Of a DNA stretch of 64,000 bases, positions 1 through 60,283 are shown in pieces. The stretch covers positions 48,686,489 to 48,750,488 of the forward strand of contig NC_091300.1 in NCBI RefSeq assembly GCF_038502225.1, written 5' to 3'. Each line of letters starts with the position of its first letter. Positions within the stretch are counted from its first letter, which is position 1. Source of the stretch: Cherax quadricarinatus (Eukaryota > Arthropoda > Malacostraca > Decapoda > Parastacidae). The translations under genes and the position numbers were made by a program. Under the pieces are notes generated by a model that saw only the letters and a program-made list of their open reading frames with translations, did not search any database and was not told the DNA's origin.

Positions 1-688
1 CATCCACTAGTCGAAGTAGGTCTTCGTCCAAAGGTTGAACAAGTGTTGAAGAATTCTTTGTAACAAGACCCCATGATGCTGCAGTGTCTGACAGTTGTGA
101 TGAATGGTTTGAAAAACCGACAAGTTGAAGATTGAGACACTTATGCAGCATATGGGAATCTTTATTCAGGAAACGTTTCGCCACACAGTGGCTTCATCAG
201 TCCAATACAAAGAGGAAGGCGTAAGGAGAGGAGGAGAATGAGGTAATCAGTCCCTCAACCTGGAGTCGATGTGTTCAGTCCATCAATCTTGTAGAATGTA
301 CAGCATAGGGCCGTAGACGTGGCTTATATACTGTAGTGAGGTGACGTGAAGCAGATGGAGGCGGGGTCATAGTGGTACCATCCACTAGTCGAAGTAGGTC
401 TTCGTCCAAAGGTTGAACAAGTGTTGAAGAATTCTTTGTAACAAGACCCCATGATGCTGCCGTGTCTGACAGTTGTGATGAATGGTTTGAAAAACCGACA
501 AGTTGAAGATTGAGACACTTATGCAGCATATGGGAATCTTTATTCAGGAAACGTTTCGCCACACAGTGGCTTCATCAGTCCAATACAAAGAGGAAGGCGT
601 AAGGAGAGGAGGAGAATGAGGTAATCAGTCCCTCAACCTGGAGTCGATGTGTTCAGTCCATCAATCTTGTAGAATGTACAGCATAGGA
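1..688 (-). repeat. 378-bp hammerhead satellite, minus half-array (left part)
   Basis: Nearly identical copies of a 378-bp unit in minus orientation; the array continues at 2773 after an insertion. Hammerhead-like motifs lie at 160-212 and 538-590. The last unit is interrupted at 688 by the ORF1-only element. Short frames in each unit repeat identically from unit to unit and are not genes. Copies differ by only a few bases, so amplification looks recent. Confidence 0.95.
160..212 (-). ncRNA. Type I hammerhead ribozyme-like motif (satellite copy)
   Basis: Minus-strand copy of the motif described at 3740-3792, with the same CTGATGA box, stem II and GAAA. Further minus copies lie at 538-590, 3011-3063, 3389-3441, 8830-8882 and 11380-11432. 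Confidence 0.7.
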
Positions 689-2772
689 ACGAACGAACGA
701 ACGAAAGTTCAGGTAAGATCCCAAATGGGATGAGAGGGGAAGGCGGGACAGACGAAGAATAGTGCTGGAGAGGAGTGTTCTTAGTAGTAGAAATAGAGCC
801 AGGGCTTAACCCAGCAGCTAAGTCGATCGTGGGACAGACATTGAGAACACACATAGCAGGCTCTTCTGTTGGGACTCCGGTGGGTGAGTGGGGAAGTGTG
901 GACAGACGATGAACAGTCGTGAGAGGAAGGTCTTGAGTTGTAGAATAAAGAGCCAGGGCTAAACCCAGCTGCGTGGCACTGCGAGGCAGTGTAGAGAGGG
1001 CATGTTGAGGACATAGAGGAGAGAGCAGACTGCAGACAGTGCTCGCTGACTGATATGCTTCAGGCTGAGGTGAAGAGCTGGTTTGGACGTCAGGTGTTGG
1101 GAAGGGTGTTGTGTGTTTGGCTACACTTCGCTGGTGATGGAACCACTCTTGAGTCTTTTGAAGTCTCTCTTGGACATGTGGAATAGTTGCATTCTGAGGT
1201 TGGAGCAGTTCAGATTCGTCACGAGGTAAGATAGTGCGTTTTCAAAAGGAATTTGGTGAGGTTTGGTGCAGGTGTACTTAACAGCTCCTTCTTTCATTAA
1301 GTGGAGCATATCAGCTGCGCTCATTTCGGTTGGGAGGTTGGGGGTGGTGTAGAAGGTTAGAGACCCATTAAAGGCTTGGCTTAGGTAACGGTTGCGTGTG
1401 GTTTCTTCTTCGACTACTACTTCGTCGTTGTCCGAGGGTTGTTCATAATGTTCTGGTACTATTTCGTCTTCTGTGACTGTGTTGAGAGGAGGCAGGGAGT
1501 GTTGGTCGGTTGTGATTTGTTGGGCTGGTGGTGGGTGGTGAGAGGTGGCAGTAGACGGTGGTGTTGGTTCTGGAGTAGAGTCTTGGTCAGAGATACAAGT
1601 AGGACCAGGTGAGGTGAAGTTAACAATATCTGGAATTAGCTTGAGGAGGTCTTGTGATGGTGGCGAGTCTGGAAAGTTGAAGTTTGGCATGTTGTTTAGG
1701 CGAAACAGTTCATTGATTGTCGTGTTGAATGAGCCAGGGTTTGCAGCATTATTAAGGTGTGCATACATCATACAGTATAGCACCTTGGATGGAACAGCGT
1801 CAGGAAGAGCAAGGAGGGACTGGCTGGGTGGAGATGATTGTTGTGTAGCTTGAAGGAGTTCGGTGGTATCTGATTGAATTTTTGCAATGGCGGCGTATGT
1901 TGGCGATTTAGGGTTGTTCTTCTTGGTTTCTTCAATGATTTTCTTAGACAGGACTTCTTTACGTAGAGGGCATTTTGCTGCAAGGGTGTGGTGAGTACCC
2001 TTGCAGTTGAGGCAGGTAGGAGAGGTAGTGGTAGTAGAACATTCCTTGAAGTCATGGCCGTCTTTACCGCAGTTTGTGCAGTACTTTTTCCCTTTCAGAG
2101 GACAGTCAGGCGTTGAGTGGTGATAGGAGTAGCAGGTCCAGCATGGCGAGATGTGGGCGAAACGTTCGGGTTCTATGTGACTTGGATGGATATGATAGTA
2201 GGAGATAGCTAGGCCGTCAGACAGTGCTCTAGTAGCCATCTCGATGTTGGAGAAGGTTAGCTTGATCATTGTAGAGGCGTTGGGGATTTTGGTGATATGT
2301 TCAATCGACGCCCAGGTATTTTGTTCCTCGATAGAGGTCTTGAGATCCTCAGTTGATAAAGAAGTGACGAGTTTGTCCAGCCGTTTGACGAAAACGGAAC
2401 GTTTCGCCAGCAAAAAAGGTGAAGGGGAGATGGTGAACTGTCGGTCTCTGAGGGTTTTCATAGAAGTGTCGGCGATCAGCTTTGTGGCTTCATAATCGTC
2501 GGTACAGACGACGATGAATGAGTCTTTCGTCGAGTTGATGGCTGTAAATTTAACCTGTAGGCAAGTCTTTACAACGGCAGCAAGGGCAAGTTTAGTAGAG
2601 TCATTTATTACTCCACTGTTGGGTTTGATCCTTACACGGTTTGCAAGCATCATGAAGGAGTAAGTCAGGCGCTGGTACGATGACTATAGGTTCCCCTCCC
2701 CGACGGGGATCGAAGGAACACTTCTTGAGGTGAGGAGCGACTGTGTCTTACGATGATGTGTTTGGAGTGACC
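689..2772 (-). mobile_element. ORF1-only non-LTR retrotransposon derivative (HAL1-like) inserted in the satellite
   Basis: A 2084-bp insertion interrupts a satellite unit and is flanked by a perfect 10-bp direct repeat, ACAGCATAGG, at 679-688 and 2773-2782, read as the target-site duplication. In minus orientation it has a short 5' leader, one 510-codon ORF1, a GC-mixed 3' region holding an imperfect duplication of roughly 170 bp (about 725-960), and a tetranucleotide CGTT tail at 689-706. There is no endonuclease or reverse transcriptase, yet the ends look complete, so it was probably mobilised in trans. The parallel with mammalian HAL1 (ORF1-only L1 derivatives) is by analogy only. Confidence 0.8.
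1121..2653 (-). CDS. LINE ORF1 / gag-like nucleic-acid-binding protein, 510 aa
   Basis: Intact 510-codon frame starting at two adjacent Met codons. Residues 171-184 and 192-205 form CCHC zinc knuckles (CWTC...H...C and CTNC...H...C), and residues 214-228 a third Cys/His cluster (CLNC...H...C), as in ORF1 proteins of jockey-superfamily LINEs. The region before them (about 85-165) may be a degenerate RRM-like fold; after residue 260 the protein is low-complexity, rich in Pro, Ser and Thr, with an acidic stretch near 400. The expected role is binding LINE RNA in a ribonucleoprotein particle. It is the only protein of its element and has no frameshift, which suggests a recent insertion. Confidence 0.85.
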   Translation of the reverse strand: MMLANRVRIKPNSGVINDSTKLALAAVVKTCLQVKFTAINSTKDSFIVVCTDDYEATKLIADTSMKTLRDRQFTISPSPFLLAKRSVFVKRLDKLVTSLSTEDLKTSIEEQNTWASIEHITKIPNASTMIKLTFSNIEMATRALSDGLAISYYHIHPSHIEPERFAHISPCWTCYSYHHSTPDCPLKGKKYCTNCGKDGHDFKECSTTTTSPTCLNCKGTHHTLAAKCPLRKEVLSKKIIEETKKNNPKSPTYAAIAKIQSDTTELLQATQQSSPPSQSLLALPDAVPSKVLYCMMYAHLNNAANPGSFNTTINELFRLNNMPNFNFPDSPPSQDLLKLIPDIVNFTSPGPTCISDQDSTPEPTPPSTATSHHPPPAQQITTDQHSLPPLNTVTEDEIVPEHYEQPSDNDEVVVEEETTRNRYLSQAFNGSLTFYTTPNLPTEMSAADMLHLMKEGAVKYTCTKPHQIPFENALSYLVTNLNCSNLRMQLFHMSKRDFKRLKSGSITSEV

Positions 2773-3636
2773 ACAGCATAGGGCCGTAGACGTGGCTTAT
2801 ATACTGTAGTGAGGTGACGTGAAGCAGGTGGAGGCGGGGTCATAGTGGTACCATCCACTAGTCGAAGTAGGTCTTCGTCCAAAGGTTGAACAAGTGTTGA
2901 AGAATTCTTTGTAACAAGACCCCATGATGCTGCCGTGTCTGACAGTTGTGATGAATGGTTTGAAAAACCGACAAGTTGAAGATTGAGACACTTATGCAGC
3001 ATATGGGAATCTTTATTCAGGAAACGTTTCGCCACACAGTGGCTTCATCAGTCCAATACAAAGAGGAAGGCGTAAGGAGAGGAGGAGAATGAGGTAATCA
3101 GTCCCTCAACCTGGAGTCGATGTGTTCAGTCCATCAATCTTGTAGAATGTACAGCATAGGGCCGTAGACGTGGCTTATATACTGTAGTGAGGTGACGTGA
3201 AGCAGATGGAGGCGGGGTCATAGTGGTACCATCCACTAGTCGAAGTAGGTCTTCGTCCAAAGGTTGAACAAGTGTTGAAGAATTCTTTGTAACAAGACCC
3301 CATGATGCTGCCGTGTCTGACAGTTGTGATGAATGGTTTGAAAAACCGACAAGTTGAAGATTGAGACACTTATGCAGCATATGGGAATCTTTATTCAGGA
3401 AACGTTTCGCCACACAGTGGCTTCATCAGTCCAATACAAAGAGGAAGGCGTAAGGAGAGGAGGAGAATGAGGTAATCAGTCCCTCAACCTGGAGTCGATG
3501 TGTTCAGTCCATCAGTCTTGTAGAATGTACAGCATAGGGCCGTAGACGTGGCTTATATACTGTAGTGAGGTGACGTGAAGCAGATGGAGGCGGGGTCATA
3601 GTGGTACCATCCACTAGTCGAAGTAAGTCTTCGACT
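2773..3636 (-). repeat. 378-bp hammerhead satellite, minus half-array (right part)
   Basis: Continuation of the minus-oriented array after the insertion: two full units with hammerhead motifs at 3011-3063 and 3389-3441, then a partial unit ending at the orientation switch near 3637. Most units here carry a GG variant in the segment read as gtaggtcttcg; the partial unit at the junction carries the variant typical of the plus array. Confidence 0.95.
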
Positions 3637-3739
3637 TACGGCCCTATGCTGTACATTCTACAAGATTGATGGACTGAACACATCGACTCCAGGTTGAGGG
3701 ACTGATTACCTCATTCTCCTCCTCTCCTTACGCCTTCCT

Positions 3740-3792
3740 CTTTGTATTGGACTGATGAAGCCACTGTGTGGCGAAACGTTTCCTGAATAAAG
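3740..3792 (+). ncRNA. Type I hammerhead ribozyme-like motif (representative plus copy)
   Basis: Read by eye: stem I 5' side ends GGA (3749-3751), conserved box CTGATGA at 3752-3758, one extra A, stem II GCCAC/GTGGC with a TGT loop (3760-3772), GAAA at 3773-3776, then a minimal stem III formed by palindromic ACGT, and stem I 3' side starting TCC at 3781. The predicted cleavage lies after T3780. Outer stem I pairs CTTT (3740-3743) with AAAG (3789-3792). Very short stem III is typical of hammerheads in Penelope-like elements. Copies recur every 378 bp to 7142, and at 9040 and about 11523. The extra A before stem II is non-canonical; activity is untested. Confidence 0.72.
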
Positions 3793-3999
3793 ATTCCCAT
3801 ATGCTGCATAAGTGTCTCAATCTTCAACTTGTCGGTTTTTCAAACCATTCATCACAACTGTCAGACACGGCAGCATCATGGGGTCTTGTTACAAAGAATT
3901 CTTCAACACTTGTTCAACCTTTGGACGAAGACTTACTTCGACTAGTGGATGGTACCACTATGACCCCGCCTCCATCTGCTTCACGTCACCTCACTACAG

Positions 4000-4007
4000 T
4001 ATATAAG
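4000..4007 (+). promoter_or_regulatory. TATA box in the 378-bp unit (representative)
   Basis: TATATAAG occurs once per unit at the same phase, in a GC-richer context and about 120 nt upstream of the next hammerhead motif. It could drive Pol II transcription of the array in the ribozyme-sense direction. No initiator was proved. Confidence 0.45.
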
Positions 4008-7000
4008 CCACGTCTACGGCCCTATGCTGTACATTCTACAAGATTGATGGACTGAACACATCGACTCCAGGTTGAGGGACTGATTACCTCATTCTCCCCC
4101 TCTCCTTACGCCTTCCTCTTTGTATTGGACTGATGAAGCCACTGTGTGGCGAAACGTTTCCTGAATAAAGATTCCCATATGCTGCATAAGTGTCTCAATC
4201 TTCAACTTGTCGGTTTTTCAAACCATTCATCACAACTGTCAGACACGGCAGCATCATGGGGTCTTGTTACAAAGAATTCTTCAACACTTGTTCAACCTTT
4301 GGACGAAGACTTACTTCGACTAGTGGATGGTACCACTATGACCCCGCCTCCATCTGCTTCACGTCACCTCACTACAGTATATAAGCCACGTCTACGGCCC
4401 TATGCTGTACATTCTACAAGATTGATGGACTGAACACATCGACTCCAGGTTGAGGGACTGATTACCTCATTCTCCTCCTCTCCTTACGCCTTCCTCTTTG
4501 TATTGGACTGATGAAGCCACTGTGTGGCGAAACGTTTCCTGAATAAAGATTCCCATATGCTGCATAAGTGTCTCAATCTTCAACTTGTCGGTTTTTCAAA
4601 CCATTCATCACAACTGTCAGACACGGCAGCATCATGGGGTCTTGTTACAAAGAATTCTTCAACACTTGTTCAACCTTTGGACGAAGACTTACTTCGACTA
4701 GTGGATGGTACCACTATGACCCCGCCTCCATCTGCTTCACGTCACCTCACTACAGTATATAAGCCACGTCTACGGCCCTATGCTGTACATTCTACAAGAT
4801 TGATGGACTGAACACATCGACTCCAGGTTGAGGGACTGATTACCTCATTCTCCTCCTCTCCTTACGCCTTCCTCTTTGTATTGGACTGATGAAGCCACTG
4901 TGTGGCGAAACGTTTCCTGAATAAAGATTCCCATATGCTGCATAAGTGTCTCAATCTTCAACTTGTCGGTTTTTCAAACCATTCATCACAACTGTCAGAC
5001 ACGGCAGCATCATGGGGTCTTGTTACAAAGAATTCTTCAACACTTGTTCAACCTTTGGACGAAGACTTACTTCGACTAGTGGATGGTACCACTATGACCC
5101 CGCCTCCATCTGCTTCACGTCACCTCACTACAGTATATAAGCCACGTCTACGGCCCTATGCTGTACATTCTACAAGATTGATGGACTGAACACATCGACT
5201 CCAGGTTGAGGGACTGATTACCTCATTCTCCTCCTCTCCTTACGCCTTCCTCTTTGTATTGGACTGATGAAGCCACTGTGTGGCGAAACGTTTCCTGAAT
5301 AAAGATTCCCATATGCTGCATAAGTGTCTCAATCTTCAACTTGTCGGTTTTTCAAACCATTCATCACAACTGTCAGACACGGCAGCATCATGGGGTCTTG
5401 TTACAAAGAATTCTTCAACACTTGTTCAACCTTTGGACGAAGACTTACTTCGACTAGTGGATGGTACCACTATGACCCCGCCTCCATCTGCTTCACGTCA
5501 CCTCACTACAGTATATAAGCCACGTCTACGGCCCTATGCTGTACATTCTACAAGATTGATGGACTGAACACATCGACTCCAGGTTGAGGGACTGATTACC
5601 TCATTCTCCTCCTCTCCTTACGCCTTCCTCTTTGTATTGGACTGATGAAGCCACTGTGTGGCGAAACGTTTCCTGAATAAAGATTCCCATATGCTGCATA
5701 AGTGTCTCAATCTTCAACTTGTCGGTTTTTCAAACCATTCATCACAACTGTCAGACACGGCAGCATCATGGGGTCTTGTTACAAAGAATTCTTCAACACT
5801 TGTTCAACCTTTGGACGAAGACTTACTTCGACTAGTGGATGGTACCACTATGACCCCGCCTCCATCTGCTTCACGTCACCTCACTACAGTATATAAGCCA
5901 CGTCTACGGCCCTATGCTGTACATTCTACAAGATTGATGGACTGAACACATCGACTCCAGGTTGAGGGACTGATTACCTCATTCTCCTCCTCTCCTTACG
6001 CCTTCCTCTTTGTATTGGACTGATGAAGCCACTGTGTGGCGAAACGTTTCCTGAATAAAGATTCCCATATGCTGCATAAGTGTCTCAATCTTCAACTTGT
6101 CGGTTTTTCAAACCATTCATCACAACTGTCAGACACGGCAGCATCATGGGGTCTTGTTACAAAGAATTCTTCAACACTTGTTCAACCTTTGGACGAAGAC
6201 TTACTTCGACTAGTGGATGGTACCACTATGACCCCGCCTCCATCTGCTTCACGTCACCTCACTACAGTATATAAGCCACGTCTACGGCCCTATGCTGTAC
6301 ATTCTACAAGATTGATGGACTGAACACATCGACTCCAGGTTGAGGGACTGATTACCTCATTCTCCTCCTCTCCTTACGCCTTCCTCTTTGTATTGGACTG
6401 ATGAAGCCACTGTGTGGCGAAACGTTTCCTGAATAAAGATTCCCATATGCTGCATAAGTGTCTCAATCTTCAACTTGTCGGTTTTTCAAACCATTCATCA
6501 CAACTGTCAGACACGGCAGCATCATGGGGTCTTGTTACAAAGAATTCTTCAACACTTGTTCAACCTTTGGACGAAGACTTTCTTCGACTAGTGGATGATA
6601 CCACTATGACCCCGCCTCCATCTGCTTCACGTCACCTCACTACAGTATATAAGCCACGTCTACGGCCCTATGCTGTACATTCTACAAGATTGATGGACTG
6701 AACACATCGACTCCAGGTTGAGGGACTGATTACCTCATTCTCCTCCTCTCCTTACGCCTTCCTCTTTGTATTGGACTGATGAAGTCACTGTGTGGCGAAA
6801 CGTTTCCTGAATAAAGATTCCCATATGCTGCATAAGTGTCTCAATCTTCAACTTGTCGGTTTTTCAAACCATTCATCACAACTGTCAGACACGGCAGCAT
6901 CATGGGGTCTTGTTACAAAGAATTCTTCAACACTTGTTCAACCTTTGGACGAAGACTTACTTCGACTAGTGGATGGTACCACTATGACCCCGCCTCCATC

Positions 7001-7253
7001 TGCTTCACGTCACCTCACTACAGTATATAAGCCACGTCTACGGCCCTATGCTGTACATTCTACAAGATTGATGGACTGAACACATCGACTCCAGGTTGAG
7101 GGACTGATTACCTCATTCTCCTCCTCTCCTTACGCCTTCCTCTTTGTATTGGACTGATGAAGCCACTGTGTGGCGAAACGTTTCCTGAATAAAGATTCCC
7201 ATATGCTGCATAAGTGTCTCAATCTTCAACTTGTCGGTTTTTCAAACCATTCA

Positions 7254-8594
7254 TCACACACGCCTCTCCAGAGAGTGGAGATTTAAGGCTTTAAGTCTAT
7301 CTTCATACGGGAGGTTCCTTACACAGTAAATCATTTTAGTCATTCTTCTCTGTATGTTCTCTAATGAGTCTATGTCCATCCTGTAGTAAGGGGACCAAAA
7401 CTGAGCAGCATAATCTAAATGAGGCCTCACTAGTGATGTATAGAGCTGTAAAATAACTTTTGGACTTCTGTTACTTATACTTCTTGAGATAAATCCAAGT
7501 AATCTGTTGGCCTTGTTGCGCACACTGAGGCACTGCTGTCTTGGCTTTAGATTTCTGCTTACCATGACTCCCAAGTCTTTTTCACATTCTGTATGACCAA
7601 GCTCTACTTCACCTAGATTATAGCTTCGAGGGTTATTTTCATTACCAAGGGCAAGTACCTTACACTTATCCACATTAAACCTCATCTGCCATTTCTCAGA
7701 CCAAGACATTAATTTGTTCAAATCGTCCTGGAGTTCATTGATATCCTCCTCAGAGTGAATTATACGGCCTATCTTTGTATCATCAGCAAACTTACTCATG
7801 TCACTAGTAATCCCTTCATCAAGGTCATTAATGTAAATTATGAACAAGAGAGGGCCTAAAACTGATCCTTGTGGAACGCCACTAGTGACTAGTCCCCATT
7901 CAGATTTCACTCCATTAATGGTAACTCTCTGCTTTCTATTGGTAAGCCATGCCTCAATCCATGCTAGAACTTTACCTCCTATACCGTGAGCTGCCACTTT
8001 TCTTAAGAGTCTCTTGTGAGGTACTCTGTCGAAGGCTTTACTAAAATCCAAATAAACAATATCATATTCCTTATCACTGTCAACTGCCTCAAATGTTCTA
8101 TTGAAGAACGTCAGTAAGTTTGTCAGGCAGGAACGACCTCTCGTGAATCCATGCTGAGATTCATTTATCAAGTTATGCTCTTCAAGGTGACTTCTGATAA
8201 TGTCAGCTATAATTGATTCTAATAACTTGCCCACTATAGATGTCAGGCTTATTGGACGGTAATTTGAAGGAGTGGACTTATCCCCTGATTTGAATATAGG
8301 AACCACATTAGCCATCTTCCACATCTCTGGCACAACACTGGTAAGGATGGACGCATTGAATACACTCGTTAATGGCTGACTAAGCTCCAACTTGCATTCC
8401 TTAAGTACCCTTGAAAACAACTCATCGGGTCCCGGGGACTTATTTTGTTTCAGTTTGTCTATCTGTTTAATAACCATGTCCCTCGTGACAGTAATATTAG
8501 TTAACTTAAATTCATCAGGAACTAAATAATTGTTAAAAGGAACTAAATAATTGTTAATTGTTCTTATGTTCTTATTTAGATTGGGTGAGTACAT
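7254..8594 (-). CDS. CR1/Jockey-like LINE reverse transcriptase, 5'-truncated, 446 codons open
   Basis: Reverse transcriptase of a non-LTR retrotransposon. The frame begins close to the RT domain (NKSPGPDEL near residue 53) and contains YRPISLTS, the palm motif YLDFSKAFDRVPH, the SGVPQGSVLGPLLF block and the catalytic FADDTK motif, then a thumb-like region ending LHSLERRV. No endonuclease domain is present and the C-terminus stops at the satellite junction, so both ends are truncated although the frame is open. The F in FADD is usual for this clade. It lies between a plus satellite end (7257) and a minus one (8765), so it may have landed inside, or been captured between, inverted units. Confidence 0.85.
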   Translation of the reverse strand: MYSPNLNKNIRTINNYLVPFNNYLVPDEFKLTNITVTRDMVIKQIDKLKQNKSPGPDELFSRVLKECKLELSQPLTSVFNASILTSVVPEMWKMANVVPIFKSGDKSTPSNYRPISLTSIVGKLLESIIADIIRSHLEEHNLINESQHGFTRGRSCLTNLLTFFNRTFEAVDSDKEYDIVYLDFSKAFDRVPHKRLLRKVAAHGIGGKVLAWIEAWLTNRKQRVTINGVKSEWGLVTSGVPQGSVLGPLLFIIYINDLDEGITSDMSKFADDTKIGRIIHSEEDINELQDDLNKLMSWSEKWQMRFNVDKCKVLALGNENNPRSYNLGEVELGHTECEKDLGVMVSRNLKPRQQCLSVRNKANRLLGFISRSISNRSPKVILQLYTSLVRPHLDYAAQFWSPYYRMDIDSLENIQRRMTKMIYCVRNLPYEDRLKALNLHSLERRV

Positions 8595-8764
8595 GAGTGG
8601 GAGGGGTTGGATTTGAGTGGGACTTGCACATCAGAGCTTATTTCTTGGGTAGCATTGAAAATTGGGTTGGGCAAATGTTTTGTTAGTGGGATGAATTGTA
8701 AAGGACCTGCCTAGTATGGGCCAACAGGCCTGCTGCAGTGTTCCTCCTTTCTTATGTTCTTATG
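8590..8764 (-). repeat. Interspersed repeat segment upstream of the LINE RT
   Basis: Minus-strand sequence running from a CATAAGAA octamer repeat (8740-8764) through a segment containing GCAGCAGGCCTGTTGGCCC, which I recognise as a frequent decapod interspersed repeat. Another CATAAGAA-type octamer run occurs at 9127-9145. It may be the LINE's 5' part or a separate SINE; the two cannot be told apart here. Confidence 0.4.
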
Positions 8765-9126
8765 TTGTGATGAATGGTTTGAAAAACCGACAAGTTGAAG
8801 ATTGAGACACTTATGCAGCATATGGGAATCTTTATTCAGGAAACGTTTCGCCACACAGTGGCTTCATCAGTCCAATACAAAGAGGGAGGCGTAAGGAGAG
8901 GAGGAGTATGAGGTAATCAGTCTCTCAGCCTGGAGTCGATGTGTTCAGTCCATCAATCTACAAGATTGATGGACTGAACACATCGACTCCAGGCTGAGGG
9001 ACTGATTACCTCACACTCCTCCTCTCCTTACGCCTTCCTCTTTGTATTGGACTGATGAAGCCACTGTGTGGCGAAACGTTTCCTGAATAAAGATTCCCAT
9101 ATGCTGCATAAGTGTCTCAATCTTCA
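8765..9126. repeat. Fold-back pair of hammerhead units
   Basis: A minus copy of part of the 378-bp unit (8765-8955) meets a plus copy (8958-9126) head to head, so the arms after about 8796 can pair across a centre near 8957. Each arm has its own hammerhead-like motif (8830-8882 minus, 9040-9092 plus). Arms differ at a few sites. Confidence 0.85.
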
Positions 9127-11290: not shown

Positions 11291-11344
11291 TCAATGAATA
11301 TTCTGTTTCCCATGCGACTGTTTTTTTTTCTCCTTCATGATTTA

Positions 11345-11640
11345 ATGAAGATTGAGACACTTATGCAGCATATGGGAATCTTTATTCAGGAAACGTTTCG
11401 CCACACAGTGGCTTCATCAGTCCAATACAAAGAGGAAGGCGTAAGGAGAGGAGGAGTATGAGGTAATCAGTCCCTCAGCCTGGAGTCGATGTGTTCAGTT
11501 CATCAATCTTGTAGAATGTACATTGTATTGGACTGATGAAGCCACTGTGTGGCGAAACGTTTCCTGAATAAAGATTCCCATATGCTGCATAAGTGTCTCA
11601 ATCTTCAACTTGTTGGTTTTTCAAACCATTTATCACACAT
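11345..11640. repeat. Second fold-back of the hammerhead unit
   Basis: A minus copy (11345-11521, hammerhead 11380-11432) abuts a plus copy (11523-11640) whose ribozyme-like motif lacks the outer CTTT of stem I. The right arm ends at the same point of the unit (ATCACA) as the main array and the copy at 8765. Confidence 0.8.
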
Positions 11641-11654
11641 GATTTAATACACAA

Positions 11655-11800
11655 ATAACCCGCACATAAAAGAGAGAAGCTTACGACGACGTTTCGGTCC
11701 GACTTGGACCATTGACAAAGTCACAGTTGTCAATGGTCCAAGTCGGACCGAAACGTCGTCGTAAGGTTCTCTCTTTTATGTGCGGGTTATTTGTGTATCG
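11655..11800. repeat. Fold-back with GGTCC-loop-GGACC-GAAACG hairpin
   Basis: Near-perfect inverted repeat centred near 11728. Each arm holds a 5-bp hairpin GGTCC/GGACC followed by GAAACGTCGTCG, as in the 3' half of a hammerhead, but the box 5' of the hairpin is not CTGATGA. A single plus copy of the same family occurs at 44836-44900. Probably another PLE terminal repeat family. 11801-12200 shows nothing recognisable. Confidence 0.7.
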
Positions 11801-12204
11801 TTCCAGTCACGGTATTGTGCCTTTTTTTTGTTATTTATGATTTAATACTTTTGTGTCAAGGGTTAATATGTCTTCTCTCACGTGATGATGACTGTCTTAC
11901 ACGCACTCACACGGGCTAATATTTCTGGCTCCCACGATTCATATCTGTTCACACGATCAATTTTTTTCTTGTGTTTTTCCGCTTATAATTGCGGTGAACA
12001 TTTAACAACGTTCTTTTATTCTCTTGTATTACATATTATCGTCTGTTCCTCACATCAGTATTATATCATAAAAATATCGCAGGTTCTTAACGATATTTGA
12101 GATTTCGTATTTCTATCGGAATTTTCATGAGAGACAATAACAGAATTATTATTCCAAATTATTTTGATAAAAAAAATCCGAAGCGGCCATCAAGAGACTT
12201 GATG

Positions 12205-14770
12205 GTCGCTTGTTATCATCTACCCCGCTTCATGACTACCGTTATCATCTACCCCGCTTCATGACTACCGTTATCATCAACCCCGCTTCATGACTACCGT
12301 TATCATCAACCCCGCTTCATGACTACCGTTATCATCAACCCCGCTTCATGACTACCGTTATCATCAACCCCGCTTCATGACTACCGTTATCATCTACCCC
12401 GCTTCATACCTACCGTTATCATCAACCCCGCTTCATGACTACCGTTATCATCAACCCCGCTTCATGACTACCGTTATCATCAACCCCGCTTCATGACTAC
12501 CGTTATCATCTACCCCGCTTCATGACTACCGTTATCATCAACCCCGCTTCATGACTACCGTTATCATCAACCCCGCTTCATGACTACCGTTATCATCAAC
12601 CCCGCTTCATGACTACCGTTATCATCAGCCCCGCTTCATGACTACCGTTATCATCAGCCCCGCTTCATGACTACCGTTATCATCAACCCCGCTTCATACC
12701 TACCGTTATCATCAACCCCGCTTCATGACTACCGTTATCATCAACCCCGCTTCATGACTACCGTTATCATCAACCCCGCTTCATACCTACCGTTATCATC
12801 AACCCCGCTTCATGACTACCGTTATCATCAACCCCGCTTCATGACTACCGTTATCATCAACCCCGCTTCATACCTACCGTTATCATCAACCCCGCTTCAT
12901 GACTACCGTTATCATCAACCCCGCTTCATGACTACCGTTATCATCAACCCCGCTTCATACCTACCGTTATCATCAACCCCGCTTCATGACTACTGTTATC
13001 ATCTCTCCCGCTTCATACCTACCGTTATCATCAACCCCGCTTCATGACTACCGTTATCATCAACCCCGCTTCATACCTACCGTTATCATCAACCCCGCTT
13101 CATGACTACCGTTATCATCAACCCCGCTTCATGACTACCGTTATCATCAACCCCGCTTCATACCTACCGTTATCATCAACCCCGCTTCATGACTACCGTT
13201 ATCATCAACCCCGCTTCATGACTACCGTTATCATCAACCCCGCTTCATACCTACCGTTATCATCAACCCCGCTTCATGACTACGGTTATCATCTCTTCCG
13301 CTTCATACCTACCGTTATCATCAACCCCGCTTCATGACTACCGTTATCATCAACCCCGCTTCATGACTACCGTTATCATCAACCCCGCTTCATGACTACT
13401 GTTATCATCTACCCCGCTTCATACCTACCGTTATCATCAACCCCGCTTCATGACTACTGTTATCATCTACCCCGCTTCATACCTACCGTTATCATCAACC
13501 CCGCTTCATGACTACCGTTATCATCAACCCCGCTTCATGACTACCGTCATCATCCACGTCGCTTCATGAATACCGTTATCATCCACGTCGCTTCATGACT
13601 ACCGTTATCATCAACCCCGCTTCATGACTACCGTCATCATCCACGTCGCTTCATGACTACCGTTATCATCCACGCTGCTTCATGACTACCGTTATCATCC
13701 ACCCCGCTTCATGACTACCGTTATTATCCACGTCGCTTCATGACTACCGTTATCATCCACCCCGCTTCATGACTACCGTTATCATCCACGCTGCTTCATT
13801 ACTACCGTTATCATCCACGCTGCTTCATTACTACCGTTATCATCCACGCTGCTTCATTACTACCGTTATCATCCACGCTGCTTCATTACTACCGTTATCA
13901 TCTACCCCGCTTCATGTCTACCGTTATTATCCACTCCGCTTCATGTCTACCGTTATTATCCACTCCGCTTCATGACTACCGTTATCATCCACCCCGCTTC
14001 ATGACTACCGTTATCATCAACATCGTTTCATGACTACAATTATGATCCGCGCCGCTTCATGACTACCGTTACCATCCACCCAGTTTCATGACTACCGTTA
14101 TCATCCACGCTGCTCTATGACTACCATAGTCATCAACCCTGCTTCATGACTACCGTTACCATCCACGCTGCTTCATGACTACCGTTACCATCCACGCTGC
14201 TTCATGACTACCGTTATCATCCACCCAGTTTCATGACTATCGTTATCATGCGCGCTGCTTCATGACTTCCGTTATTATCTACGCTACTTCATGACTTCCG
14301 TTATCATCTATGCTGCCTCATGACTTCCGCTATCATCCACCCGCTTTATGATTATCGTTATCATCAACCCCGCTTCATGACTTCCATTATTATCCCCGCT
14401 GTTTCATGACTACCGTTATCATCTACGCTGCTTCATGGCTATCGTTATCATCCACGCTGCTTCTTGACTACCGTTATCATCTATGCTGTTTCATGACTAC
14501 CGTCCGTTATCATCCACGCCTCTTCATGTCTACTTTAATCATCTACGCTGTTTCATGACGACCGTTATCATCCTCCCCGCTTCATGACTTCCGTTATCAT
14601 CGACGCTGCTTCATGACTACCGTTATCATTCACGCTGGTTCATGACTACTGTTATCATCCACGCTGCTTTATGACTGCCGTTATCATCCACCCCACTTCA
14701 TGACTACCGTTATCATCCACCTCGCTTCATGACCACCGTTATCATCCACGCTGCTTCATGACTACCGTTT
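12205..14770 (+). repeat. 29-bp minisatellite (about 88 copies)
   Basis: Tandem 29-bp unit built on GCTTCATGACTACCGTTATC. Copies at 12236-13540 are nearly identical; those after about 13540 diverge progressively. In 12660-13340 a GACTACC/TACCTACC alternation gives a three-unit (87-bp) higher-order repeat. Long open frames here arise because three units restore frame; they are not genes. Confidence 0.97.
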
Positions 14771-15429
14771 TCATCCACGGTGATCGGTGACTCGTCCTTG
14801 GTGCTCCATGACTCGTCTTTGGTGCTCCATGACTCGTCCTTGGTGCTCCGTGACTCGTCCTTGGTGTTCCGTAACTCGTCCTGGTGCTCCGTGACTCGTC
14901 CTTGGTGCTCCGTGACTCGTCCTTGGTGCTCCGTGACTCGTCCTGGTGCTCCGTGACTCGTCCTTGGTGCTCCGTGACTCGTCCTGGTGCTCCGTGACTC
15001 GTCCTTGGTGCTCCGTGACTCGTCCTTGGTGCTCCGTGACTCGTCCTTGGTGCTCCGTGACTAGTCCTTGGTGCTCCGTGACTCGTCCTTGGTGCTCCGT
15101 GACTCGTCCTGGCGCTCCGTGACTCGTCCTTGGTGCTCCGTGACTCGTCCTGGTGCTCCGTGACTCGTCTTTGGTGCTCCGTGACTCGTCCTTGGTGCTC
15201 CGTGACTCGTCCTTGGTGCTCCGTGACTCGTCCTTGGTGCTCCGTAACTCGTCCTGGTGCTCCGTGACTCGTCCTTGGTGCTCCGTAACTCGTCCTTGGT
15301 GTTCCGTAACTCGTCCTGGTGCTCCGTGACTCGTCCTTGGTGCTCCGTGACTCGTCCTTGGTGCTCCGTGACTCGTCCTGGTGCTCCGTGACTCGTCCTT
15401 GGTGCTCCGTAACTCGTCCTGGTGCTCCC
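14771..15429 (+). repeat. 20/21-bp minisatellite abutting the 29-bp array
   Basis: About 31 copies of GTGACTCGTCCTTGGTGCTCC, alternating with a version one base shorter (CCTGG for CCTTGG). Open frames on the minus strand are repeat artefacts. The array begins directly where the 29-bp array ends. Confidence 0.95.
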
Positions 15430-45560: not shown

Positions 45561-45633
45561 GGCAGCAGGGTACACAGCCCCACAACTGTTTCTTCCATGG
45601 CTGTGGAGTCCAAGGCAGAGTCGAAAACAGTTC

Positions 45634-47409
45634 TTGAGTTACTGGAGTTGGAAGCAATTCTTGTGTTACTGTAGACGGAAGCAATTCTTGAGTTACTGGA
45701 GACGGAAGCAATTCTTGTGTTACTGGAGACGAAAGCAATTCTTGTGTTACTGGAGACGGAAGCAATTCTTGAGTTACTGGAGACAGAAGCAATTCTTGTG
45801 TTACTGGAGACGAAAGCAATTCTTGTGTTACTGGAGACGGAAGCAATTCTTGAGTTACTGGAGACGAAAGCAATTCTTGTGTTACTGGAGACGGAAGCAA
45901 TTCTTGTGTTACTGTAGACGGAAGCAATTCTTGTGTTACTGTAGACGGAAGCAATTCTTGAGTTACTGGAGACGGAAGCAATTCTTGTGTTACTGGAGAC
46001 GAAAGCAATTCTTGTGTTACTGGAGACGGAAGCAATTCTTGAGTTACTGGAGACGGAAGTAATTCTTGTGTTACTGGAGACGAAAGCAATTCTTGTGCTA
46101 CTGGAGACGAAAGCAATTCTTGAGTTACTGGAGACGAAAGCAATTCTTGTGTTACTGGAGACGGATGCAATTCTTGTGTTACTGTAGACGGAAGCAATTC
46201 TTGTGTTACTGTAGACGGAAGCAATTCTTGAGTTACTGGAGACGGAAGTAATTCTTGTGTTACTGGAGACGAAAGCAATTCTTGTGTTACTGGAGACGAA
46301 AGCAATTCTTGTGTTACTGGAGACGGAAGCAATTCTTGTGTTACTGGAGACGGGAGCAATTCTTGTGTTGCTGGAGACGGGAGCAATTCTTGTGTTACTG
46401 GAGACGGGAGCAATTCTTGAGTTACTGGAGACGGAAGCAATTCTTGTGTTACTGGAGACGAAAGCAATTCTTGTGTTACTGGAGACGGAAGCAATTCTTG
46501 AGTTACTGGAGACAGAAGCAATTCTTGTGTTACTGGAGACGAAAGCAATTCTTGTGTTACTGGAGACGGAAGCAATTCTTGAGTTACTGGAGACGAAAGC
46601 AATTCTTGTGTTACTGGAGACGGAAGCAATTCTTGTGTTACTGTAGACGGAAGCAATTCTTGTGTTACTGTAGACGGAAGCAATTCTTGAGTTACTGGAG
46701 ACGGAAGTAATTCTTGTGTTACTGGAGACGAAAGCAATTCTTGTGTTACTGGAGACGAAAGCAATTCTTGTGTTACTGGAGACGGAAGCAATTCTTGTGT
46801 TACTGGAGACGGGAGCAATTCTTGTGTTGCTGGAGACGGGAGCAATTCTTGTGTTACTGGAGACGGGAGCAATTCTTGAGTTACTGGAGACGGAAGCAAT
46901 TCTTGTGTTACTGGAGACGGGAGCAATTCTTGTGTTACTGGAGATGGGAGCAATTCTTGTGTTACTGGAGACGGGAGCAATTCTTGTGTTACTGGAGACG
47001 GGAGCAATTTTTGTGTTACTGGAGACGGGAGCAATTCTTGTGTTACTGGAGACGGGAGCAATTCTTGTGTTACTGGAGACGGAAGCAATTCTTGTGTTAC
47101 TGGAGACGGGAGCAATTCTTGTGTTACTGGAGACGGGAGCAATTCTTGTGTTACTGGAGATGGGAGCAATTCTTGTGTTACTGGAGACGGAAGCAATTCT
47201 TGTGTTACTGGAGACGGGAGCAATTCTTGTGTTACTGGAGACGGGAGCAATTCTTGTGTTACTGGAGACGGGAGCAATTCTTGTGTTACTGGAGACGGGA
47301 GCAATTCTTGTGTTACTGGAGACGGGAGCAATTCTTGTGTTACTGGAGACGGAAGCAATTCTTGTGTTACTGGAGACGGGAGCAATTCTTGTGTTACTGG
47401 AGACGGGAG
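45634..47409 (+). repeat. 27-bp minisatellite (about 66 copies)
   Basis: Unit GGAGACGGAAGCAATTCTTG plus TGTTACT. Since 27 is a multiple of 3 and the unit has no stop in several frames, long open frames (up to 661 codons) exist on both strands; none has domain content. A 17-unit (459-bp) higher-order repeat is visible: 46255-46700 and 46714 onward start with the same variant series. Copies after about 46900 become uniform (GGGAGC variant). Confidence 0.97.
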
Positions 47410-55596: not shown

Positions 55597-58500
55597 TGTA
55601 ACTTACTGCACTACTAGCCGAGTAACTTACTGCACTACTAGCCGAGTAACTTTCTGCACTACTAGCCGAGTAACTTACTGCACTACTAGCCGAGTAACTT
55701 ACTGCACTACTAGCCGAGTAACTTTCTGCACTACTAGCCGAGTAACTTTTTGCACTACTAGCCGAGTAACTTACTGCACTACTAGCCGAGTAACTTACTG
55801 CACTACTAGCCGAGTAACTTACTGCACTACTAGCCGAGTAACTTACTGCCCTACTAGCCGAGTAACTTTCTGCACTACTAGCCGAGTAGCTTACTGCAAT
55901 ACTAGCCGAGTAACTTTCTGCACTACTAGCCGAGTAACTTTCTGCACTACTAGCCGAGTAACTTACTGCACTACTAGCCGAGTAACTTTCTGCACTACTA
56001 GCCGAGTAATTTACTGCACTACTAGCCGAGTAACTTTCTGCACTACTAGCCGAGTAACTTACTGCACTACTAGCCGAGTAACTTTCTGCACTACTAGCCG
56101 AGTAACTTACTGCACTACTAGCCGAGTAACTTACTGCACTACTAGCCGAGTAACTTTCTGCACTACTAGCCGAGTAACTTTCTGCACTACTAGCCGAGTA
56201 ACTTTCTACACTACTAGGCGAGTAACTTTCTGCACTACTAGCCGAGTAACTTACTGCACTACTAGCCGAGTAACTTTCTGCACTACTAGCCGAGTAAATT
56301 TCTGCACTACTAGCCGAGTAACTTTCTGCACTACTAGCCGAGTAACTTACTGCACTACTAGCCGAGTAACTTCCTGCACTACTAGCCGAGTAAATTTCTG
56401 CACTACTAGCCGAGTAACTTTCTGCACTACTAGCCGAGTAAATTACTGCACTACTAGCCGAGTAACTTTCTGCACTACTAGCCGAGTAACTTTCTGCACT
56501 ACTAGCCGAGTAACTTACTGCACTACTAGCCGAGTAACTTTCTGCACTACTAGCCGAGTAACTTTCTGCACTACTAGCCGAGTAACTTTCTGCACTACTA
56601 GCCGAGTAACTTTCTGCACTACTAGCCGAGTAACTTACTGCACTACTAGCCGAGTAACTTCCTGCACTACTAGCCGAGTAATTTTCTGCACTACTAGCCG
56701 AGTAACTTTCTGCACTACTAGCCGAGTAACTTACTGCACTACTAGCCGAGTAACTTTCTGCACTACTAGCCGAGTAACTTACTGCACTACTAGCCGAGTA
56801 ACTTTCTGCACTACTAGCCGAGTAACTTTCTGCACTACTAGCCGAGTAACTTACTGCACTACTAGCCGAGTAACTTTCTGCACTACTAGCCGAGTAACTT
56901 TCTGCACTACTAGCCGAGTAACTTACTGCACTACTAGCCGAGTAAATTTCTGCACTACTAGCCGAGTAACTTTCTGCACTACTAGCCGAGTAACTTTCTG
57001 CACTACTAGCCGAGTAACTTTCTGCACTACTAGTCGAGTAATTTTCTGCACTACTAGCCGAGCAACTTACTGCACTACTAGCCGAGTAACTTTCTGCACT
57101 ACTAGCCGAGTAACTTTCTGCACTACTAGCCGAGTAACTTACTGCACTACTAGCCGAGTAACTTTCTGCACTACTAGCCGAGTAACTTTCTGCACTACTA
57201 GCCGAGTAACTTACTGCACTACTAGCCGAGTAACTTACTGCACTACTAGCCGAGTAACTTACTGCACTACTAGCCGAGTAACTTACTGCCCTACTAGCCG
57301 AGTAACTTACTGCACTACTAGCCGAGTAGCTTACTGCAATACTGGCCGAGTAACTTTCTGCACTACTAGGCGAGTAACTTTCTGCACTACTAGCCGAGTA
57401 ACTTACTGCACTACTAGCAGAGTAACTTTCTGCACTACTAGCCGAGTAACTTACTGCACTACTAGCCGAGTAACTTTCTGCACTACTAGCCGAGTAACTT
57501 TCTGCACTACTAGCCGAGTAACTTTCTGCACTGCTAGCCGAGTAACTTTCTGCACTACTAGCCGAGTAACTTACTGCACTACTAGCCGAGTAACTTACTG
57601 CACTACTAGCCGAGTAACTTTCTGCACTACTAGCCGAGTAACTTTCTGCACTACTAGCCGAGTAACTTTCTGCACTACTAGCCGAGTAACTTTCTGCACT
57701 ACTAGCCGAGTAACTTACTGCACTACTAGCCGAGTAACTTTCTGCACTACTAGCCGAGTAACTTTCTGCACTACTAGCCGAGTAACTTTCTGCACTACTA
57801 GCCGAGTAACTTACTGCACTACTAGCCGAGTAACTTTCTGCACTACTAGCCGAGTAACTTTCTGCACTACTAGCCGAGTAACTTTCTGCACTACTAGCCG
57901 AGTAACTTACTGCACTACTAGCCGAGTAACTTTCTGCACTACTAGCCGAGTAACTTTCTGCACTACTAGCCGAGTAACTTTCTGCACTACTAGCCGAGTA
58001 ACTTTCTGCACTACTAGCCGAGTAACTTTCTGCACTACTAGCCGAGTAACTTTCTGCACTACTAGCCGAGTAACTTACTGCACTACTAGCCGAGTAACTT
58101 TCTGCACTACAAGCCCAGTAACTTTCTGCACTACTAGCCGAGTAACTTTCTGCACTACTAGCCGAGTAACTTTCTGCACTACTAGCCGAGTAACTTTCTG
58201 CACTACTAGCCGAGTAACTTACTGCACTACTAGCCGAATAACTTACTGCACTACTAGCCGAGTAACTTACTGCACTACTAGCCGAGTAACTTTCTGCACT
58301 ACTAGCCGAGTAACTTTCTGCACTACTAGCCGAGTAACTTACAGCACTACTAGCCGAATAACTTACTGCACTACTAGCCGAGTAACTTTCTGCACTACTA
58401 ACCGAGTAACTTACTGCACTACTAGCCGAGTAACTTTCTGCACTACTAGCCGAGTAACTTTCTGCACTACTAGCCGGGTAACTTACTGCACTACTAGCCG

Positions 58501-59090
58501 AGTAACTTTCTGCACTACTAGCCGAGTAACTTACTGCACTACTAGCCGAGTAACTTACTGCACTACTAGCCAAGTAACTTACTGCACTACTAGCCGAGTA
58601 ACTTTCTGCACTACTATCCGAGTAACTTACTGCACTACTAGCCGAGTAACTTTCTGCACTAATAGCCGAGTAACTTTCTGCACTACTAGCAGAGTAACTT
58701 ACTGCACTACTAGCCGAGTAACTTTCTGCACTACTAGCCGAGTAACTTACTGCACTACTAGCCGAGTAACTTACTGCACTACTAGCCAAGTAACTTACTG
58801 CACTACTAGCCGAGTAACTTACTGCACTACTAGCCAAGTAACTTACTGCACTACTAGCCGAGTAACTTACTGCACTACTAGCCGAGTAACTTTCTGCACT
58901 ACTAGCCGGGTAACTTACTGCACTACTAGCCGAGTAACTTACTGCACTACTAGCCGAGTAACTTACTGCACTACTAGCCGAGTAACTTACTGCACTACTC
59001 GCCAAGTAACTTACTGCACTACTAGCCGAGTAACTTACTGCACTACTAGCCAAGTAACTTTCTGCACTACTAGCCGAGTAACAACGCTGA
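55597..59090. repeat. 24-bp minisatellite (about 145 copies), open on both strands
   Basis: Unit GTAACTTWCTGCACTACTAG plus CCGA, where W is A or T in nearly equal use. Plus translation repeats VTYCTTSR/VTFCTTSR over 1180 codons (55577-59119); minus repeats SASSAVSY/SASSAESY over 1163 codons. The only frequent variation changes the amino acid on both strands, and no signal peptide, intron or other domain is seen, so a gene is unlikely. A marked variant series recurs 1440 bp (60 units) apart. Confidence 0.96.
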
Positions 59091-59377
59091 ACGTTTCACA
59101 TCTTGTATTTTTAAAGTGATAATAACTACAATGCTTCTTGCACTTGACAATTACTCTACGAACCTTCAAGTATTAATAACTGACCGGGGTGTGAAATTTG
59201 AAGACAAGTGGATTACCTGTTCTGAAGTTATACACGAAAAACTTAGATGACATTTATGAGTTCACTCAACTCACGAAATTTTAAAACGCTGTAGAAATAT
59301 GAGAATTATTTTTCATTTTTAATTTCTTTCTGCAGTGTCATTCATTTTAAAATTCTTTAAAAATCTTCCTTTAAAAT

Positions 59378-60140
59378 GGACTAGACTACGACTACCGCTA
59401 CTACCACCACTGCTAAAACTAGACTACGACTACCGCTACTACCACCATTGTTAAAACTAGACTACGACTACCGCTACTACCAACACTGCTACAACTAGAC
59501 TACGACTAACGCTACTACCACCACTGCTACAAATAGACTACGACTAACGCTACTACCACCACTGCTACAACTAGACTACGACTACCACTACTACCACCAC
59601 TGCTACAACTAGACTACGACTTTCACTACTACCACCACTGCTACAAATAGACTACGACTACCGCTACTACCACCACTGCTACAACTAGACTACGACTAAC
59701 GCTACTACCACCACTGCTAAAACTAGACTACGACTAACGCTACTACCACTACTGCTACAACTAGACTACGACTAACGCTACTACCACCACTGCTACAACT
59801 AGACTACGACTACCGCTACTACCACTACTGCTACAACTAGACTACGACTAACGCTACTACCACCACTGCTACAACTAGACTACGACTACCGCTACTACCA
59901 CCACTGCTACAACTAGACTACGACTAACGCTACTACCACCACTGCTACAACTAGACTACGACTAACGCTACTACCACTACTGCTACAACTAGACTACGAC
60001 TAACGCTACTACCACCACTGCTACAACTAGACTACGACTAACGCTACTACCACCACTGCTACAACTAGACTACGACTACCGTTACTACCACCACTGCTAC
60101 AACTAGACTACGACTACCGCTACTACCACCACTGCTACAA
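59378..60140 (+). repeat. 38-bp minisatellite (about 20 copies)
   Basis: Unit starting CTAGACTACGACTACCGCTA, itself made of degenerate NAC/CTN triplets, with an ACC/AAC variant. It is followed by TGC/ACT triplet-rich sequence to 60225. 59091-59377 shows nothing recognisable. Confidence 0.95.
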
Positions 60141-60283
60141 CTCCTCCTGCTGCTGCCACTACCACTACTACTACTGCGACATTACTTTTATCGTTATTAC
60201 TACAACTATAGCTGCTGCTACTACTAACTTAAATAAATTAAAATTCTCATGACTCCTTAATGACACAAGTTAAAACGTTGACA

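Follow-up and report, generated by a model that had tools for sequence, protein, structure and literature searches.

A 378-bp hammerhead-bearing repeat of Cherax quadricarinatus as a probable non-autonomous Penelope-like element

The 378-bp array

The window analysed here, a 64,000-nucleotide stretch of the genome of the crayfish Cherax quadricarinatus (contig NC_091300.1, positions 48,686,489 to 48,750,488), begins with an array of 378-bp units that carry a TATA box and a motif resembling a hammerhead ribozyme. We consider it highly probable that the unit is a non-autonomous derivative of a Penelope-like element (PLE), that is, a terminal repeat without its coding body, which was presumably moved in trans and amplified into arrays. 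The unit is read as a PLE derivative devoid of an open reading frame (ORF) because it shows insertion hallmarks of PLEs and because its sequence is homologous to part of the terminal repeat of L103, a PLE of the same genome that does encode protein domains.

Tandem Repeats Finder delimited arrays of 378-bp units at 2773–3633 and 3637–7258 (99% matches), and blastn against the unit detected further minus-strand units at 1–687 (99%). On alignment, the array proved to consist of two opposed arms lying head to head at 3634–3636; the 5′-5′ junction region, 3617–3643, contains a short palindrome, GTAAGTC-TTC-GACTTAC. The left (minus) arm is made of an outer visible part (1–687) and an inner part of 2.3 units (2773–3633), which form a single arm with a LINE-like (long interspersed nuclear element) insertion between them. 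It extends about 5.6 kb to the left of the window, as far as L013:3912, and ends there near u184 (unit positions, u, are numbered from window position 3638); a second LINE-like insertion interrupts this extension. The right (plus) arm, at 3637–7258, holds 9.6 units and has a tailed 3′ end at u219. The original prediction had described a satellite at 1..7257; its 378-bp units stand, but the single tandem block has to give way to two opposed arms that continue beyond the window. It had also pointed to the near identity of the units, and in fact the nine full plus-strand units show only four differences in total from their consensus.

The TATA box TATATAAG, a predicted promoter element, lies at 4000–4007 on the plus strand (u363–370) and is repeated in phase, as had been noticed; a pattern search of the window found 13 copies, every one within the array. 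AATAAA (3786–3791, plus strand; u149–154) is found shortly 3′ of the inner stem I of the hammerhead motif, and TGAATAAAG occurs 18 times, one copy beside each such motif. A 30-nt segment at 3827–3856 on the plus strand (u190–219), with the hairpin GGTTT-TTC-AAACC at 3834–3846, was recognised as an optional 3′ tail from the positions of insertion ends, which sit immediately before or after it. No ORF for a reverse transcriptase (RT) or GIY-YIG endonuclease was found in the unit, whose longest open frame is 98 aa, and, apart from the LINE-like insert, the ORFs listed for the array include no RT/GIY-YIG frame either. The unit content is best read as a promoter, a minimal hammerhead, the start of a lost ORF and the 30-nt tail hairpin.

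Insertion architecture and target duplications

Insertions of the family were mapped around the first 100 motif places listed on contig C1, for which 59 of 62 clusters were fetched (two regions overlap), together with the left flank of the window; this sample holds 136 mapped arms. Among 37 neighbouring motif pairs on C1 less than 1 kb apart, 26 were oriented minus-plus and none plus-minus, the others being plus-plus (7) or minus-minus (4). The 3′ ends of the 34 arms with at least 95% identity in the 59 C1 loci fall into two groups, u189–194 (15 arms) and u218–221 (16 arms), and only three lie elsewhere, at u185, u226 and u376. Sixteen insertion groups are young (at least 95% identity) and 12 of them are head to head; one untailed and one tailed end were observed in 11 of these 12, or in 13 of 14 when the two dispersed insertions of the window are added (coin probability 0.0009). 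Target duplications of 12–14 bp flank nine of the 16 young groups (that of L064 in an AT run), with 8 bp in one more and 7 bp in another. By comparison, 320 random-offset controls gave no duplication in 281 cases, 6 bp in 30, 7 bp in seven, and 8 bp and 12 bp in one case each. With its head-to-head arms, its one tailed and one untailed end and its 12–14-bp duplications, the 378-bp repeat is therefore not a plain satellite.

The window itself contains three head-to-head inverted pairs: the array and two dispersed insertions. The first of these, at 8764–9126, has a minus arm at 8764–8959 (end at u221) and a plus arm at 8954–9126 (end at u189), and sits within a simple TTCTTATG repeat, hence its duplication is ambiguous. 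In the second, at 11346–11637, the minus arm (11346–11522) ends at u189 and the plus arm (11523–11637) at u219, and CATGATTTAAT flanks the insertion at 11336–11346 and 11638–11648. A similar layout can be read in an annotated protein. The 98-aa frame of the unit served as query against 5.8 billion proteins; four candidates shared words and length with it and one passed, P0001, an annotated 134-aa protein of Cherax quadricarinatus (E 1.4e-10), which is 57% identical to the frame over 62% of its length. In our reading, P0001 would correspond to a minus arm from u189, a junction in stem II of the hammerhead motif and a plus arm to u219. With part of P0001 as query, the sole protein recovered was P0001 itself, among one candidate.

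Head-to-head pairs could also be made by foldback of a single cDNA and not by priming on both target strands, which we regard as rather unlikely. Foldback would suit the palindrome at the array junction, the P0001 junction within stem II, and the facing 5′ ends that lie no more than 2 nt apart in four of the 12 young head-to-head groups (L021, L025, L063 and L069); moreover, self-priming has been proposed for PLEs (PMC3846280). However, the facing 5′ ends are at least 9 nt apart in the other eight groups, for example u14/u32 in L022, u54/u369 in L047, u14/u111 in L048 and u198/u23 in L057, and a single foldback event cannot easily yield one tailed and one untailed end.

A coding Penelope-like element in the same genome

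GIY-YIG sequences abound in the genome: a first look gave 14,992 candidates, 150 of which were scored. At L103, two PLE copies lie head to head with open frames of 793 aa and 787 aa, the former matching RVT_1 (E 2.5e-10) and GIY-YIG (E 6.9e-8). The terminal repeat of L103 aligns with parts of u124–236 at 71–77% (best E about 1e-8). One of its ends is untailed and the other bears a 31-nt tail, and the tail hairpins are parallel, GGTAT-TTT-ATACC in L103 and GGTTT-TTC-AAACC in the 378-bp unit.

The repeats adjacent to coding frames were sampled from 31 GIY-YIG loci, namely the 30 best-scoring ones and L103. ORF-end motifs numbered 37, in 28 of the 31 loci, and a readable GAAACG repeat was found behind 32 of them, in 25 loci. 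In all 32 readable repeats CTTGARAAAGC replaces the hammerhead box, and CTGANGA is present in none. Judged from these repeats, the box retained by the non-coding family is gone from the sampled coding PLE family; other coding families may differ.

The hammerhead motif

The core CTGATGA..GAAAC was recounted in the window and found 18 times: 14 times within 1–7258 (four on the minus strand, 10 on the plus strand) and four times outside, at 8845–8870 (minus), 9052–9077 (plus), 11395–11420 (minus) and 11533–11558 (plus). The full motif reads CTGATGA-A-GCCAC-TGT-GTGGC-GAAACGTT-TCC. In a representative copy at 3749–3783 (plus strand), a predicted ribozyme of the minimal type I class recognised by sequence reading and pair covariation, stem I is formed by GGA (3749–3751) and TCC (3781–3783), the box CTGATGA lies at 3752–3758 followed by an extra A at 3759, stem II is formed by 3760–3764 and 3768–3772, and GAAACGTT occupies 3773–3780, with the predicted cut after 3780. 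Stem III is the palindrome ACGT only. In one copy, at 6776, C is replaced by T, and the position still pairs, as G-U. The original prediction had reported the same 14 array copies and four outside copies with their box, stem II and GAAA, the extra A between box and stem II and a cut after T3780, and our reading agrees with it on each point. The extra A has a natural precedent, since in chrysanthemum chlorotic mottle viroid the plus-strand hammerhead carries A10 at the equivalent place, where it moderately reduces the trans-cleaving rate (PMC3705267).

A descriptor demanding the box (with N7 free), the spacing and GAAACGTH, and no stem pairing, gave 161 matches representing 46 distinct variants, from 92 sources totalling 334,607 bases, most of which had been picked via the exact motif; five replicates of mononucleotide-shuffled sequence gave none. 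All 46 variants have A as the base 3′ of the box and T as H17; N7 is T in 38, A in seven and G in one. Single-core-base changes, which fall outside the descriptor, were seen in three of 32 motif kinds, each a singleton. Across the 46 variants, the third pair of stem I is G-C in 30, C-G in five, T-A in two, G-T in five and unpaired in four; the fourth pair of stem II is A-T in 39 and T-A in seven; and the fifth is C-G in 37, A-T in seven and G-C and T-G in one each. For these three pairs the observed pairing was above all 5000 shuffles, in a test that ignores the relatedness of the variants; the remaining inner pairs are nearly invariant and therefore uninformative for covariation. One subfamily has a whole extra stem II pair (GCCTAC/GTAGGC). 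A second set was drawn from 443 genome matches selected for a differing second pair (reversed control 0), with 78 distinct motifs among the 100 listed. Here the fourth pair of stem II was Watson-Crick in 63 of 77, against a shuffle mean of 29.9 and maximum of 44, and the fifth in 34 of 73, equal to the shuffle maximum. In the same set, the second and third pairs lay within the shuffles (42 against a mean of 35.8 and maximum of 47; 54 against 47.7 and 56), and 33 of the 78 have one contiguous pair only. Judging by its letters and their variation, the motif resembles a structurally constrained hammerhead of the minimal type I class. In the main subfamily stem I can be extended by an outer helix (CUUUGU/AUAAAG), which is absent from several others and was discounted.

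Conservation rates calculated per region are biased, the loci having been picked by the exact motif, and genome counts were used instead. The exact 31-nt motif has 46,664 copies in the 3.95-Gb genome and none in the reversed control, and thus is not due to chance; up to three mismatches raise the count to 79,333, the matches listed being all exact. The exact neighbouring 33-mer, u157–189, has 13,005 copies, so that, between these two stretches, it is the motif that is shared more widely. Genome-wide, 1,814 motifs have some base other than A behind the box (reversed control 23), and among the 80 of them listed, 11 are standard motifs with a substituted base and two lack the extra base. In one region, G000:C1:24552540-24560888, the exact 33-mer recurs every 378 bp on a single strand, at least 23 times, which makes a run longer than either arm of the window. 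In viral contigs, the exact 27-mer had no match, and four matches to a degenerate pattern were judged to be chance.

Rfam, proposed in the original prediction as a check, scored no hammerhead model, neither over the window at gathering scores, nor at E up to 10 over 1.5 kb of the array (four CRISPR-DR8 matches only), nor at E up to 5 over six further loci, in scans that held no positive control for PLE-type hammerheads. The many microRNA-family matches in the six further loci fell short of their gathering scores and were set aside, since they resemble long palindromes to which hairpin models give a score.

These results bear on whether the array is ordinary satellite DNA whose hammerhead-like motif is a passive, inactive relic of a dead PLE terminal repeat, which we find doubtful. 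A relic would agree with the lack of Rfam hammerhead matches at the thresholds applied and with the absence of the box from all 32 sampled coding repeats, where it is therefore dispensable. In addition, the hammerhead of the anole PLE, PAc, showed no activity in vitro when protein was absent, and PAc with a mutated hammerhead inserted no less well than the wild type in vitro (PMC11167929). On the other hand, a passive relic is not expected to be commoner than the 33-mer next to it, nor to have substitutions that restore pairing and a stem II lengthened by one pair, and N7, the sole free position of the box, is the one that varies where the core is otherwise intact.

The copied template

The 5′ ends of 39 arms (at least 90% identity) were located to see what had been copied: 12 lie at u12–28 and none at u141–147, and the densest 15-nt interval starts at u14. 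For a TATA box at u363, transcription would be expected to start at about u12–28. Over the whole genome, 19 breaks fall exactly on the predicted cut (u144) and 71 on u148, the only control position, the pattern of which is four letters shorter. We see no sign of cleaved RNA as the insertion template, and the inserted templates look uncleaved; the hammerhead-cut 378-nt RNA put forward in the original prediction is thus not supported as the copied form. An uncleaved template agrees with the insertion of the PAc hammerhead mutants mentioned above. The role of the hammerhead, if any, is probably in RNA processing outside the copied molecule.

It is for these reasons unlikely that the unit is a metazoan retrozyme of the non-LTR kind (lacking long terminal repeats), the hammerhead-cut RNA of which would be circularised and the circles reverse transcribed into new arrays: the unit is a non-coding tandem repeat of the 170–400 bp class with a type I hammerhead motif and a G+C content of 45.5%, all of which resembles animal retrozymes (PMC7229834), rolling-circle copying would account for the exact multi-unit arms, and the circular fold is somewhat stabler than shuffles (z −2.2; 3 of 200 as stable or more), but the 5′ ends and the scarcity of u144 breaks oppose it (though circles, which would hide their 5′ ends, may have been templates for the multi-unit arms), as does a PLE-like stem III of merely ACGT, although a weak stem III is also known from axolotl retrozymes (PMC7229834).

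Neighbouring elements

The two LINE-like elements inside the array, at 688–2772 of the window and L013:4469–6387, are diverged from each other (70.7% over 1.1 kb). Both have a gag-like ORF only, with CCHC motifs in our reading, and the first has no Pfam match. They share unit position and orientation, and ACAGCATAGG is found at 678–687 and 2773–2782 on either side of the first. Genome-wide, 123 LINE-like 3′ ends, belonging to several types, abut this site in the repeat (reversed control 0), and one 3′-end type has 1,457 copies overall. These insertions may reflect either a site preference near the predicted transcription start or amplified chimeric units.

At 7254–8630 on the minus strand, an open frame for the reverse transcriptase of a LINE (RVT_1, E 1.6e-36) ends no more than five bases from the right end of the array; by eye, the left flank of the array shows no obvious continuation of this LINE. 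A palindromic PLE-like insertion of another family, at about 11650–11848, adjoins the dispersed insertion of the 378-bp family; it has a stem II of GGTCC/GGACC and CGAAACGTCG, and no CTGANGA box. ATGATTTAAT lies on both sides of each of these adjoining insertions (about 11337, 11639 and 11837), as if one target had served both. Further along the window, large minisatellites of 29, 21, 27, 24 and 38 bp occupy 12212–15428, 45631–47406 and 55598–60142; some of them contain very long open frames, which are taken as spurious.

Discussion

PLEs are distinguished by pseudo-long terminal repeats (pLTRs) with a TATA box, an adjacent inverted pLTR, duplications of 8–10 bp, head-to-head palindromes and a 31-bp tail that may be present on one inverted pLTR (PMC3846280), and in PAc this tail is bounded by two RT start sites (PMC11167929). 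The 378-bp family displays inverted head-to-head repeats, an optional tail of about 30 nt, target-site duplications and homology to a coding PLE, and its unit lacks the RT and GIY-YIG ORF of an autonomous element. A link to Penelope, one possibility among those raised in the original prediction, is thereby upheld. PLEs have been named as likely movers of short ribozyme-bearing tandem repeats of animals (PMC7761336).

We propose that RNA polymerase II would start near u12–28 from the in-phase TATA box and transcribe one or several units. A PLE RT/GIY-YIG protein encoded elsewhere may then bind the region of the tail hairpin, and nick and prime both target strands; cleavage and extension of both strands by the anole PLE protein were reported in vitro (PMC11167929). 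Reverse transcription would proceed from about u189 or about u219, on either side of the tail hairpin, towards the 5′ end of the RNA, and the cDNAs would meet head to head, leaving an inverted pair, usually with one tail, within a 12–14-bp duplication. The architecture is seen in the copies; the order of the steps is inferred. Multi-unit templates or later recombination might finally give arrays such as that at 1–7258.

Several observations weigh against this proposal. The start sites of PAc did not differ between the strands in vitro (PMC11167929), which gives no reason for the one-tail rule, and L025, with two tails, breaks it. The left end of the array is at about u184, not at the predicted u189, with no visible duplication, and five of the 16 young groups have none. 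Single arms make up 37 of the 81 insertion groups. When arms of any identity are taken, neighbours less than 100 bp apart comprise 46 minus-plus, seven minus-minus, five plus-minus and two plus-plus pairs; tail-to-tail neighbours thus occur among old copies. The covariation stems mainly from two or three subfamilies. The coding repeats sampled are all boxless, no autonomous PLE with the same terminal repeat and an intact box was found among the 150 candidates scored out of 14,992, and a search for a full-length PLE in the reading frame of the unit gave 40 protein candidates, none at E 0.01.

Perhaps the ribozyme has changed owner, an idea that we consider improbable and mention tentatively. 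The abundant coding PLE family sampled here would have become boxless, and a protein-less parasite, present in tens of thousands of copies, would have kept the box together with an extra A that hardly varies. If this is true, the hammerhead would serve the RNA of the parasite and be dispensable for PLE insertion; for example, as a protein-assisted ribozyme, it might supply short RNAs that load onto the PLE protein.

We found no report of an ORF-less hammerhead repeat with PLE insertion scars in the excerpts available from the literature on PLE hammerheads, retrozymes and decapod repeats (including PMC10454600), and one may exist. Such a repeat bears on what moves the ribozyme repeats of animals. 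Its copy numbers make the rules proposed here testable, namely two start sites, one tail, 12–14-bp duplications and 5′ ends at the promoter start, and a boxless coding family beside a box-keeping non-coding one offers a contrast on the role of the hammerhead in PLEs.

Comparison with known systems

Metazoan non-LTR retrozymes resemble the 378-bp family in that their tandem units are short and non-coding and each contain a single type I hammerhead, and in their G+C content below 50% and target duplications of more than 4 bp (PMC7229834). Some published retrozymes have a weak stem III and lack loop contacts (PMC7229834). Unlike them, the 378-bp unit has a minimal motif of the PLE type, an extra A and 5′ ends at the predicted promoter start, and inverted one-tailed pairs were not found described for retrozymes in the available part of PMC7229834. 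The viroid plus hammerhead (PMC3705267) shares the extra A, between A9 and 10.1, and otherwise belongs to an unrelated replicon. Schistosoma W-elements (PMC8490949) and the repeats of newt and axolotl (PMC7229834) are satellite-like hammerhead repeats as well, some of them dispersed; for one W-element a target duplication has been noted as a possibility (PMC8490949), and in the excerpts of these papers inverted single-tail pairs were not found reported for either group.

From PLEs of the Penelope/Poseidon kind, the 378-bp unit differs by having no RT/GIY-YIG ORF, by measuring only 378 bp and by forming tandem arrays, and its duplications are mostly of 12–14 bp against 8–10 bp in the PLEs of Adineta vaga (PMC3846280). 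It is nevertheless with these elements, as described in A. vaga (PMC3846280) and for PAc of the anole (PMC11167929), that it has in common a terminal repeat with a TATA box, an adjacent inverted copy placed head to head, an optional tail of 30–40 nt between the RT start sites, a short target duplication and a minimal type I hammerhead.

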